From the NCBI GenBank assembly GCA_012798115.1, contig JAAZNV010000007.1, forward strand, positions 89,586 to 129,739: a DNA stretch of 40,154 bases, read 5' to 3'. The DNA comes from a candidate division WWE3 bacterium (GTDB lineage Bacteria > Patescibacteriota > WWE3 > UBA101185 > UBA10185). Position 1 is the stretch's first letter, and the number at the start of each line of letters is the position of its first letter. Of the stretch, positions 2-5,735 are shown in pieces. A model generated the notes under the pieces. It worked only from the letters and a program-made list of their open reading frames with translations. It was not told where the DNA came from and made no database searches. The position numbers and the translations under genes were made by a program.

Positions 2-1174
2 TTATTTTTTATTCTCTTTTCTATTTACTTCTTTTTATCCTATGAAAAACGTTCAAAAGCAAAAGATTTTGTGCTGTTTAATTTAGGGGGTCTTTTAGCA
101 TTTTTTTCCAAGCAAAACGGAATAATCATTCAAGTAGCATCTATCCCATACTTTTTACTTAAAAAGAAATACAAGGAAGCTTTAATGCAATCTTTCTTTA
201 TTCTTTCTGTGTTTAGTTGCTATTATTTTTTATTTCCAAGAACAGATGAGATGAAAGATAAGGATTTTCTTTTTGAGAATATATTAAATGTTCAATATTC
301 TTATTCCTTGGTTTATGGAATATTAGTTGTTGTATCTTCCTTTGTACTTCCTGTTCTCTTTAATTTTGTGTTAAGTGCTTATTTAAGCAAGAAAAAAGAT
401 ATTAAGTTAATTTTGATACTAATAGCTTCTTCTGTTCTTTGCTTCATTTTCTTAAATAAGTGGTTTATTCCTGGAAAAATATCATGGGAAGAATACCCTT
501 ATTTTGAAAATACGTTTGAAAGAACAGGGTTTTTTCCAAGATCAATTTCTGGTACTAAGTACCAATTCAGATGGAATTATGATTTATATAAGTACTGGGA
601 TGCAGTTTCTAAAATACTTTTAAGTTTGACCATTCCTTGTTTGTTCCTATATAAAAAGAAGATTATAAATATTTATTCAATATCTATAGTAGGATATGCC
701 ATTTTAATGATTTTTGTTAAAACGTTTTTTGATAGGTACCTTTTGCCTCTTATTCCTTTGTTTATTCTTTTCTTTTTATATATCAACCCTCAACTGTTCT
801 TTGCTGCTAGTTTGTCTAGCAAGGTTTTTAAGATGTTTTCTTTTACTACTACACTAACTAGCGTTCTTTTTGTTTTATTTACTGCATTTCTTTCAATGCA
901 AATGTCTATAGATTTTGTATTAACTAACAATTATGTATGGGAAAGGAGTGAAAACTTAGTAAATAGCGGAACCTCTCCAAGTAGCATTAAGGCAACAATG
1001 GCTTGGGAAAAACTTCATGGTTTATCTAGCAAGCCCAAGTATTTGTTTTCTTTTGATGATTATGTTAAAAATCCAGGATTAAGGAACTCATATTCTCTGA
1101 TAGAAAAAAAGGAAATTGATTATCCTGCAAATATATTTATAGATTCTGCAATTTACTTGTATCAAGAAAAGTAG
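2..1174 (+). CDS. Polytopic membrane protein, probably a GT39/PMT-like glycosyltransferase C-terminal part (5' truncated by window edge)
   Basis: Frame is open to the left edge without a stop; many hydrophobic segments; next to a window edge, so the GTG at 71 is probably not the true start. Confidence 0.6.
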   Translation, partial: LFFILFSIYFFLSYEKRSKAKDFVLFNLGGLLAFFSKQNGIIIQVASIPYFLLKKKYKEALMQSFFILSVFSCYYFLFPRTDEMKDKDFLFENILNVQYSYSLVYGILVVVSSFVLPVLFNFVLSAYLSKKKDIKLILILIASSVLCFIFLNKWFIPGKISWEEYPYFENTFERTGFFPRSISGTKYQFRWNYDLYKYWDAVSKILLSLTIPCLFLYKKKIINIYSISIVGYAILMIFVKTFFDRYLLPLIPLFILFFLYINPQLFFAASLSSKVFKMFSFTTTLTSVLFVLFTAFLSMQMSIDFVLTNNYVWERSENLVNSGTSPSSIKATMAWEKLHGLSSKPKYLFSFDDYVKNPGLRNSYSLIEKKEIDYPANIFIDSAIYLYQEK

Positions 1175-2466: not shown

Positions 2467-2542
2467 TGGCGCACCTGGAGGGAATTGAACCCCCGACCTT
2501 TTCCTTAGAAGGGAACTGCTCTATCCGCTGAGCTACAGGTGC
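2467..2542 (-). tRNA. tRNA-Arg (UCU), CCA encoded
   Basis: Acceptor gcacctg/caggtgc, anticodon loop CTTCTAA, T-arm GGGGGTTCAATTCCCTC, encoded GCCA. Confidence 0.95.
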
Positions 2543-2724
2543 AAATATTCTCTATTGTATCTAATTTTATATAATTTTCCATCTTTTGTTTAAGAATTAC
2601 ACTTATATTTATTGTTTACCTTTTGCTATCAATTTTATAATCTACACTACCTATGGCAGAAGAACTTTTATGAAAAATATAATGACTCACTATTTGCTTT
2701 GATTTCTTATACCTTATAGTTTGA

Positions 2725-2753
2725 CAAGATTAAAATATTGTGTTATAGTGCTC
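2725..2753 (+). promoter_or_regulatory. Sigma-70-type promoter driving the orphan ncRNA
   Basis: TTGACA-17 nt (AGATTAAAATATTGTGT)-TATAGT just upstream of the structured intergenic transcript. Confidence 0.75.
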
Positions 2754-3012
2754 CTACTTAGTCTCCAACCAGCCTAAAAAAGGCTAATCCAAAGGTGAAG
2801 AGATAAGTAGGGGTAGTTTAGTCTTGTCGCCCCGAATCTTAAAGGAGAAAGCCATGAACTGGCCTTAAGCCTTTATAATAATAAAAAATAAAAGACTAAA
2901 AAAACCGGATCAAAAAGACCTGTTTCTACTGTAAGTTAAACTTACGCAGGTCAAAAATGTCGAAAGTTATTAAACCCGAGATAAAAGTAGATTATTTCGG
3001 GTTGTTTTTTTT
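2753..3012 (+). ncRNA. Candidate stand-alone structured ncRNA, about 260 nt
   Basis: Own promoter; nested complementary segments (CCTACTT/AAGTAGG, AGCCT/AGGCT, TTTAGTCTT/AAGACTAAA, GTAAGTT/AACTTAC within GACCTG/CAGGTC); ends at an intrinsic terminator; no significant ORF and no co-directional gene downstream. Confidence 0.6.
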
Positions 3013-3013
3013 G
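2973..3013 (+). terminator. Intrinsic terminator of the orphan ncRNA
   Basis: AACCCGA...TCGGGTT followed by gTTTTTTTT on the + strand; no T-run on the minus side. Confidence 0.75.
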
Positions 3014-3023
3014 TTACACTTTC

Positions 3024-4271
3024 CTACTTTCTAGACCTTAAAATCTTTCCTATTTCTTGCTGAGGCATTTTGATTTTTCTTGGAACGATTGCCAATGCAA
3101 ACACTGCAGATGCAAATAAAATAATTCCTGTTGATATAAAAGACCAGCCATATCCCCATTCTTTAACAATAAACCCTAGAAGAACTGGACCTATTGTATA
3201 AGCTAAGTTTCCAGAGAACTGTCCAATACTAACAAGGTCGTGTCCTGTTTCATCTAACCTTGTTACGTAATCTTCAAATACAGCAAATAGCAGTATGTTA
3301 GCTATGTCTATAAAAACAGAAGTTAATAAAACTAAACCTAAGATAACAAAAATATTATTTGAAACTCCAATTAGAGTTAAAGTAACTCCAGCTAAAATGC
3401 CTGCAATAAAAGAAGTTCTCTTCTTTCCTAATGGTTTAAATATGTATGGAATAATCCATCCTACAAACATAGTAGGAAGACAATATAAAACTAGGAACAA
3501 ATTCCCCCACTTACTTTGTTGTCTTAATTGCTCTGCATATAAGACACCTGTTGTCCAAAAAGCTACATCAAGAAGAGTAGTAGTAAATCCATAAATTACG
3601 AGAACCCATACTCTTTTTGTTAATACTTTTAAGATATTTAGTTCTTTCCAGAAGCTTCTAGGTTTTTCTCCGTTTGTTGCTTCTTTGGCATGTTGTCTTC
3701 CATACAACCCAATGAAGAAAAAGAACAATAATATGGAAGCTGTAGTTAGTATTAAAGAAGCATAAAGAGGAAGTTCAGTGTTTTTAGTAAGTAAAAAAAC
3801 AGTAACAGCAGGACCTAGCATATAAGAAGCTGATTGAAATATGGTCATGATAGCCCAAGCTTCTGTATTTTTTTGAACAGGTAAAAACTTATGAACAAAA
3901 TCAAATTTAGAATAACTTCTAAGTTCATAATAAACAGACCATACAACCATGGCAAATACAAATGGTGCTAAATCTCTTGGTAAGTATAGAAAAATCAAAG
4001 GAAATGCTATTGCAAATATCAACATCCAGATCATGAAGAATACATAATTCTTTTTATTGAAAAATTGAGCAACTATGAAATCAAAAAACATTCCAAAAAG
4101 AGAAGAAGTAGATAAAACTAGTCCAACAAGAAGAGTGTCGTGTAATTTTTCTTCAACTATAACGGGAGCCATGTAAGACATAATTCCATCGTGAAGAGAA
4201 ACAAGAAAAATGATAAAAGAAAATATAAAAAGTGGAATATACGCTTTAAACCTTGGAGCAGGTACTTTCAT
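3024..4271 (-). CDS. MFS transporter
   Basis: About 12 hydrophobic helices with MFS organisation. Confidence 0.75.
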   Translation of the reverse strand: MKVPAPRFKAYIPLFIFSFIIFLVSLHDGIMSYMAPVIVEEKLHDTLLVGLVLSTSSLFGMFFDFIVAQFFNKKNYVFFMIWMLIFAIAFPLIFLYLPRDLAPFVFAMVVWSVYYELRSYSKFDFVHKFLPVQKNTEAWAIMTIFQSASYMLGPAVTVFLLTKNTELPLYASLILTTASILLFFFFIGLYGRQHAKEATNGEKPRSFWKELNILKVLTKRVWVLVIYGFTTTLLDVAFWTTGVLYAEQLRQQSKWGNLFLVLYCLPTMFVGWIIPYIFKPLGKKRTSFIAGILAGVTLTLIGVSNNIFVILGLVLLTSVFIDIANILLFAVFEDYVTRLDETGHDLVSIGQFSGNLAYTIGPVLLGFIVKEWGYGWSFISTGIILFASAVFALAIVPRKIKMPQQEIGKILRSRK

Positions 4272-4360
4272 GGAATAATGATATCAGTTTCGGAAGGGAT
4301 AAAAAAGATTAGTTATTAAATCTTTTGATTTGTTTTGCTTAGTTTTATATACACAAGAAT

Positions 4361-4400
4361 CCCTAGCATAACATTTATCTTATTATGCTAGGGACTGTGT
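4361..4400. terminator. Hairpin/intrinsic terminator
   Basis: TCCCTAGCATAA...TTATGCTAGGGA, 12-bp perfect stem between two genes. Confidence 0.6.
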
Positions 4401-4409
4401 TTTTAATTC

Positions 4410-5258
4410 TCACAAAGATTTATACGCCTTTTCAAGAGCCTTAGCCTTGACTCCACTGTCTGAAGCTTCCAAATAAATCCTTGCGTACTCTTCGGAGGAA
4501 TTTTCCATACTTAAGAATTTCTCGAGAATTTTGTTTCTCATTTCGTCCCAAACTGGAATTTTCTCATCATAAATATCCATGTATTCCCGGAGAGATTTTG
4601 TATTATCCACAAAGTTTAATGTTACATCAATGATTTCATCGTGGAGCTCCCTTTCAGCTAGACATCTGGCGTAAAGTTCTATTCCTTTTTGGAAGGAATC
4701 AACTGTGTTTAAAGCTTTATTAAGAACCTTGTACTTGAGTTCATGCATACCCAGAGTTTTGTCGCAGATATCCATATACTCTTCAAAGGAATCTGCCATA
4801 ATAAAAGCTTTTTCTAGAACTTTAACCATAATTTCACTGCAGGGTAAAGTTTCTTCATTGCAAACTTTTATGTATTCATGGAGCAAGCTTTTGTCGTTCA
4901 TAAAACTAAGTGTTTTATTAATGACCTTATTGTAAAGATCTTCTCCATACTCATATGGGTCCTCAACATGGATTTTTATGCATTCCTGGAATGATTTAGC
5001 CCTACTTAAAGTTTTCTTAAGAGCTTCAACTGCAACAGCACTCATATATGGAGCTTCTAACCAGATCTCCATACATTCCTGGAATGATTTAGCCTTCCTA
5101 AGAAGGCTTTGTATTTTCTTAAGAGCTTTTTTTTCGAGTTCACTTTCTTCTGTTCTTTCAAAGAAAATTAGTGTGCACTCTCTGACAGAATTTGTTTTGC
5201 GAAGCAAATAAGTAAGAACCTCCACACTCATTTCATACTTTGTAATTTCACTTCCCAT
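4410..5258 (-). CDS. Alpha-helical solenoid protein of about 35-38-aa repeats
   Basis: Tandem units such as AKSFQECMEIWLEAPYMSAVAVEALKKTLSR / AKSFQECIKIHVEDP... / ADSFEEYMDICDKTLG... Confidence 0.7.
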   Translation of the reverse strand: MGSEITKYEMSVEVLTYLLRKTNSVRECTLIFFERTEESELEKKALKKIQSLLRKAKSFQECMEIWLEAPYMSAVAVEALKKTLSRAKSFQECIKIHVEDPYEYGEDLYNKVINKTLSFMNDKSLLHEYIKVCNEETLPCSEIMVKVLEKAFIMADSFEEYMDICDKTLGMHELKYKVLNKALNTVDSFQKGIELYARCLAERELHDEIIDVTLNFVDNTKSLREYMDIYDEKIPVWDEMRNKILEKFLSMENSSEEYARIYLEASDSGVKAKALEKAYKSL

Positions 5259-5373
5259 CTTTATCTCCTTTTCTTGTCTATATTATAGGTTGGATTGTAG
5301 CATACTTAGTTGTGAGGTACAAACCTTGTAATTTATCTGTTGGTTTGTTTAGGAAGTGGAGCTTTAGTGTATC

Positions 5374-5450
5374 TGGAGCGACGGACCGGATTTGAACCGG
5401 CGACCTTCTCCTTGGAAGGGAGACGTTCTAGCCAACTGAACTACCGTCGC
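5374..5450 (-). tRNA. tRNA-Gly (UCC), CCA encoded
   Basis: Acceptor gcgacgg/ccgtcgc, anticodon loop CTTCCAA, U73 (typical of bacterial tRNA-Gly), encoded CCA. Confidence 0.95.
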
Positions 5451-5471
5451 ATGTTTAGAACAATCCTAGCA

Positions 5472-5735
5472 TTAATCTAAATCAGAATCGAATTCTTCTT
5501 CAAAATTAGATTTAGATGTATCCTCTATTCCAAAATCATCAAGTCCATTTTCAAGTTCTGAAACATAATCAATGTCATTAAACTTAGATTTAACTTCTTT
5601 TTTCATCCCCAATGCTACTTTTACATCTTCTGGTAAATCTTCTTCTAACTCTTCTACTTCTTCATGCCCTTGGTTTTTCTTAATAACTTTTTCTTTCTTT
5701 ATTTTATTTTCTTTCTTCTTGTTTTCTTTTTTCAT
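5472..5735 (-). CDS. Small charged low-complexity protein
   Basis: Open ORF with Lys-rich N-terminus and acidic C-terminus. Confidence 0.5.
   Translation of the reverse strand: MKKENKKKENKIKKEKVIKKNQGHEEVEELEEDLPEDVKVALGMKKEVKSKFNDIDYVSELENGLDDFGIEDTSKSNFEEEFDSDLD

Follow-up and report, generated by a model that had tools for sequence, protein, structure and literature searches.

A candidate orphan small-RNA gene facing an MFS transporter gene in a WWE3 bacterium

What would be made from a promoter that is followed, some 260 nucleotides later, by an intrinsic terminator, with no long open reading frame between the two? The question is raised by an intergenic gap in the window, the 40,154-nt stretch of DNA analysed here (G000:C14:89586-129739), which belongs to a 0.76-Mb (761-kb) WWE3 genome in 14 contigs that is 95% complete. 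One boundary of the gap is a tRNA-Arg(TCT) gene on the minus strand (2467..2542). The other is an MFS transporter gene (PF07690; 3024..4271, minus strand), which is convergent to the candidate RNA gene and has its stop codon 12 nt past the last U of the latter. An initial annotation had described an orphan structured RNA at this place and held that it was not the leader of a downstream gene; indeed, every gene from 3024 to 5735, as well as a tRNA-Gly, lies on the opposite, minus strand. On the far side of the tRNA-Arg, a gene for an HNH endonuclease (PF01844/PF13392; 1973-2452, minus strand) is wedged between this tRNA and a tRNA-Leu, whose gene its stop codon abuts. The HNH gene is missing at the same place in two relatives, G003 and G004, and looks like a homing endonuclease insertion.

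The signals that delimit the unit are unlikely to be accidents of composition. The promoter (2721..2749, plus strand) consists of a -35 box TTGACA at 2721-2726 and a -10 box TATAGT at 2744-2749, separated by 17 nt and matching at 11 of 12 positions, with an extended -10 (TGT before TATAGT, the TG being at 2741-2742). It is the promoter that had been proposed, except that its start is corrected to 2721 from the 2725 at which the annotated feature began. The 761-kb genome has 14 sites of the form TTGACA-16..18-TATANT, this promoter among them, and 4 of the reversed pattern. It also carries a lineage-specific upstream element, CTTATAG (2713..2719, plus strand; consensus CCTATAG), one base before the -35 box. 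Because of its 11/12 match, its place among the 14 genomic sites and this upstream element, the promoter is more than chance. At the other end stands an intrinsic terminator (2973..3012, plus strand), in which a stem of 12 pairs (2973-2984/2992-3003) is followed by a G and then by a run of eight U (3005-3012); with z = -4.5, it too is above chance. Judged from the position of the -10 box, transcription would start at about 2756, giving a putative RNA of about 257 nt (2756..3012, plus strand) with no ORF of more than 25 codons. A stand-alone, ORF-less unit with a real promoter and a real terminator, as initially described, is thus supported.

Does this RNA belong to a known family? The whole window was searched by cmscan against all 4227 Rfam families at the gathering score, and the region of the orphan RNA also at E<=10. 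Only tRNAs were found in the window at the gathering score, and in the orphan-RNA region nothing meaningful appeared even at the relaxed threshold; neither raiA, ROOL, GOLLD nor OLE had a match in it. The earlier failure to recognise tmRNA, RNase P RNA, SRP RNA or 6S RNA is borne out by the same search. The hallmark of tmRNA is a tRNA-like acceptor together with a tag ORF, and that of RNase P RNA is the conserved P4 core. The tmRNA model (RF00023) has no match at 2600-3100 but identifies the tmRNA of this genome at G000:C2:6080-6453 (87 bits); the RNase P model (RF00010) has none in the orphan RNA, and its best genomic match is at G000:C13:6901-7225 (97 bits). Bacterial SRP RNA, for which SRP domain IV is the test, is likewise without a match in the region at E<=10. 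The 6S model (RF00013) finds nothing in the orphan RNA, in the rest of the genome or in 11 relatives. A CRISPR-associated role was also considered; the window contains no interspaced repeat array, and nothing points to such a role.

How much structure is there? Over its full length the RNA has a predicted fold with z = -4.3 to -4.9; the value is -3.4 once the terminator is removed and -2.1 for the 5' 147 nt alone. The value of -3.4 is high but not unique, because 9 of 364 pieces of the window (220 nt, 30 shuffles each) have z <= -3.27. Two of the window's most extreme-folding pieces (z -5.1 and -4.8) lie at 33881-34540 on the plus strand, in the area of the ORFs 33524-33916 (minus strand) and 34099-34353 (plus strand).

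All the pairings quoted in the initial annotation are found in the sequence, with refined coordinates. The 5' hairpin region (2753..2811, plus strand) combines CCTACTT at 2753-2759 with AAGTAGG at 2805-2811, and includes GTCTC/GAGAT and AGCC..GGCT; its z of about -2.3 is not decisive, and CCTACTT lies partly upstream of the likely transcription start. A long-range stem, TTTAGTCTT/AAGACTAAA (2817-2825/2892-2900), would then close around the hairpin TAAAGG-GCCA-TGAAC-TGGC-CCTTTA (2817..2900 in all, plus strand). Here z is about -1.7 for 2811-2902, and the 9-bp stem is not significant alone, as about 0.2 such stems are expected by chance on a base-composition estimate for this length. An A-rich stretch follows (2876..2916, plus strand), mostly unpaired, which on the minus strand would read as a U-rich part of the MFS mRNA 3' UTR. 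The strongest internal element is the hairpin 2917..2952, in which GACCTG (2917-2922) pairs with CAGGTC (2947-2952) and encloses GTAAGT/ACTTAC, and which can form on both strands. As plus-strand RNA it has -13.8 kcal/mol and z -3.9, and the segment 2912-2955 taken alone has a z of about -4. The description of the RNA as structured therefore stands in part: the fold as a whole is above chance, but most of the signal comes from the terminator and this one hairpin. The strong nested structure that had been claimed is weaker than it seemed, for the 2917-2952 hairpin may be the terminator of the MFS gene on the other strand.

These folds bear on the idea that the molecule is a protein-binding structural RNA, for instance one that regulates RNA polymerase as 6S RNA does, or some other scaffold RNA of the lineage that is absent from Rfam. 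The absence of 6S matches from G000 and the 11 relatives leaves that role unfilled in known terms, and the z of the whole RNA is what such a molecule might show. 6S RNA is defined by a long rod with a central bubble, however, while the orphan RNA is predicted to form several hairpins side by side, and its 5' 147 nt fold just slightly above chance. A housekeeping RNA would moreover be expected in congeners, yet this RNA was not found there, and a structural role of this kind is considered improbable.

Conservation of sequence or structure, on which a new family would have to rest, was sought widely. BLASTN against 45 genomes of the class returned the orphan RNA itself and one chance match, an A-rich stretch of 34 nt in G003 (E 6.6e-4) that lies inside an 80-aa ORF. 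With strict filters, a single-sequence covariance model, R1, likewise recovered only its source from 42 genomes of the class, the next hits having E = 0.27 and above; laxer filters in six genomes gave nothing better, and several syntenic loci searched with filters off held no homologue. Collections of phages and plasmids contained no homologue of the RNA; the hits there were to the promoter segment, in two Streptococcus satellite phages, and to short AT-rich stretches. Exact patterns of 19-20 nt were absent from viral contigs. Since no homologue with covariation turned up in what was searched, the orphan RNA does not qualify as a new RNA family.

Evidence from relatives comes instead from the promoter. 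The CCTATAG element was first noticed by reading promoter loci, where it sits directly before the -35 box. With at most one mismatch allowed, the combined pattern CCTATAGTTTGACA was matched 43 times across 42 genomes of the class and the reversed pattern 15 times; at 30 of the 43 a -10 box (>=5/6) follows at 16-18 nt, where 4% would be expected at random positions. The orphan-RNA promoter, CTTATAGTTTGACA-17-TATAGT, belongs to this set of 30 well-formed units. This compound class, CCTATAG-T-TTGACA-17-TATAAT, is overwhelmingly used for proteins: 28 of the 30 units lead into one (27 have an ORF of at least 60 aa within 300 nt, and at locus L117 the ORF comes after a leader of about 450 nt), and 25 of the 28 have a recognisable ribosome-binding site (RBS). 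What follows the compound promoter at loci L115-L155 is mostly a short, free-standing gene with an AAAGGAG ribosome site and no assigned function; the promoter could be the mark of a regulon, or of a set of small genes that are strongly expressed. It also supplies a rule for locating further short transcription units in the lineage.

Could the unit then be the mRNA of a small protein, or the remnant of one? The initial annotation had overlooked a canonical RBS with a four-codon ORF (2842..2868, plus strand), in which AAGGAG is followed after a 6-nt spacer by ATG AAC TGG CCT TAA, encoding MNWP. The arrangement AAAGGAGAAAGCC-ATG at 2841-2856, with the ATG at 2854, is in the exact AAAGGAGAAAG-NN-ATG style of the lineage's real gene starts. 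Outside gene starts, the window has AAGGAG with an ATG at a rate of only about 5 per 80 kb of strand, which amounts to a chance of about 1-2% within the orphan RNA. The locus could accordingly be read as a promoter-RBS-ORF-terminator unit whose ORF was cut to, or never reached beyond, a tetrapeptide, and the company its promoter keeps among protein-leading units agrees with that. No frame after the ATG stays open beyond a few codons, however; the start and its RBS are within a hairpin, and the leader would be about 98 nt long, against a median of about 45 in compound-promoter units. A small-protein origin is the main rival to a non-coding RNA, though judged unlikely on balance, and it fits poorly with the one other unit of this promoter class that leads into no protein.

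That unit, which with the orphan RNA makes up the 2 of 30 without an ORF, lies in the same syntenic gap in G004, which is of the same family but a different genus. Several relatives retain the tRNA-Leu, tRNA-Arg, MFS and tRNA-Gly genes as a neighbourhood. (The MFS protein alone had no match in the genome contigs; an alignment of 8 relatives led to 31 loci.) In the congeners G003 and G002, about 100 nt separate the end of the MFS gene from tRNA-Arg, with no such RNA gene among them. In G004 the gap is about 620 nt and holds an ORF-less unit as well as a 40-codon ORF. The G004 unit has the promoter CCTATAGTTTGACA-17-TATATT and a strong terminator, is on the same relative strand as the orphan RNA and, like it, ends some 10 nt short of the MFS stop codon. 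It has neither RBS nor ORF. An ORF-less positional counterpart thus exists in another genus, and it is the strongest argument for a non-coding reading of the unit in G000.

The likeness stops at position and promoter. The bodies of the two RNAs do not align beyond composition, the G004 RNA without its terminator folds no better than chance (z -0.7), and a DNA search with the counterpart gave only A-rich and other short matches. The folds of the orphan RNA, the G004 RNA and a second orphan of G000, described below, are no more alike than shuffled sequences. Inheritance of a non-coding transcription unit is nevertheless likely, though not proven, because the promoter pattern has five sites in G004, of which about 0.005 would be expected in the gap at random, or perhaps 0.05 if sites are confined to intergenic DNA (an estimate). 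A bolder proposal would be that WWE3 bacteria retain a non-coding unit at a fixed MFS/tRNA-Arg locus, one of few ORF-less units in the lineage, among which the second orphan of G000 would be another, with promoter and geometry kept while the RNA body diverged beyond recognition, so founding a new lineage-specific group of regulatory RNAs. This generalisation is regarded as unlikely.

The geometry of the locus directs attention to the MFS gene. Read on the minus strand, the 2917-2952 hairpin has -9.5 kcal/mol and is followed by five U (2916-2912), and between the MFS stop codon and tRNA-Arg this site (2952-2912), with an overlapping one at 2902, is the sole terminator-like site on that strand. 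It may therefore be where the convergent MFS transcript ends, although the hairpin is more stable as plus-strand RNA. Might the gap, then, be non-functional intergenic DNA between convergent genes, its hairpins the terminators of both sides and its promoter a relic? The capacity of the internal hairpin to act for the MFS gene, the gap of just about 100 nt in G003 and G002, and the lack of conservation of the orphan RNA would all be accommodated. Left over are a promoter, its upstream element and a plus-strand terminator with only the orphan unit to terminate, and the arrangement recurs in G004. The relic explanation is accordingly held to have little chance of being right.

The favoured reading, of moderate confidence, is that the unit is a gene for an orphan small RNA which probably regulates by base pairing and has the 3' end of the MFS mRNA as its most concrete partner. 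With a strong compound-class promoter of sigma-70 type and an intrinsic terminator to itself, it would be a single-gene unit whose product is a non-coding RNA about 257 nt long. The promoter, the terminator, the want of a long ORF, the convergent layout and the G004 counterpart are read from the sequence; transcription, its start, the end of the MFS mRNA, the overlap and any regulation are predictions. Because transcription leaving the MFS gene meets no terminator ahead of the RNA gene, the MFS transcript would be expected to continue about 115 nt into that gene, overlapping the 3' ~100 nt of the orphan RNA as a perfect antisense. Pairing with the MFS mRNA could tune the stability of the transporter mRNA or the formation of its 3' end. 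Its unpaired segments, rich in A or in C, could just as well find targets in trans. Duplexes predicted with 41 gene-start regions from the window gave no signal, the best value being -37 kcal/mol and the shuffle mean -40. Against a small-RNA gene count this absence of a target signal, the want of a homologue in all that was searched, the empty gap in G003 and G002, the chance-level fold in G004 and the internal RBS with its mini-ORF.

An orphan sRNA without an assigned target is unsurprising in itself. In a genome of 0.76 Mb, a free-standing RNA gene clearly bounded by promoter and terminator would all the same be a concrete starting point; among open-licence titles and abstracts, nothing was found that describes small RNAs in WWE3 (Katanobacteria), nor anything relevant on small or 6S RNAs in candidate-phyla bacteria.

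Other candidate RNAs came to light in the same genomes. A second ORF-less orphan unit of G000, at C5:45742 to ~46010 (L156 743-1010), has CCTATAGCTTGACA with a weak -10 box and would give an RNA of about 230 nt that closes with a long terminator stem, GGGTACTT..AAGTACCC, and U6. Its fold has z -3.5, it has no Rfam match, and it is flanked by genes on the opposite strand. Another RNA, conserved, free-standing and about 95 nt long, occurs at G000:C6:34322 on (L089 1501-1640), G001:C7:4819 (L083) and G004:C63:4873 (L038). It has its own promoter, a terminator-like 3' end and a long rod AGAACCCT..AGGGTTCT with the apical motif GUGGGCAGGRGUA, and it precedes a gene starting (V)KEVGLLIDLYQ; it has no Rfam family at the gathering score and only a weak antisense mraW match. 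This RNA is a better candidate for a new conserved family than the RNA of 2756..3012. In G002, a T-box leader with an Rfam match (L092 1536-1776) lies behind a TTGACA-TATACT promoter, and a similar-looking sequence stands behind such a promoter in G001 (L095).

How does the orphan RNA compare with known systems? It shares with 6S RNA a comparable size range and a stand-alone gene, but has no match to the covariance model and folds into several hairpins where 6S RNA forms one long bulged rod. Of the WWE3 compound-promoter small genes it has the CCTATAG-T-TTGACA promoter, the RBS style and the layout of a single gene plus terminator; those genes, however, carry real ORFs where the orphan RNA has only MNWP. 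As in 3'-overlapping convergent, or cis-antisense, RNAs, it is convergent with a neighbour, the MFS gene, and is predicted to overlap its 3' end by about 100 nt, with the difference that the end of the mRNA is here a predicted one. With the general class of orphan intergenic bacterial sRNAs it has in common a length of about 250 nt, its own promoter, a Rho-independent terminator with a long U tail, the lack of a long ORF and poor conservation past close relatives, even though it is bigger than most base-pairing sRNAs and holds a canonical RBS with a four-codon ORF. As it belongs to no known family and has no recognisable relative by sequence, it is probably a regulatory RNA of the ordinary, fast-evolving sort and not a novel type of molecule; as far as can be tested, it would be a lineage-restricted orphan sRNA of a kind already known.
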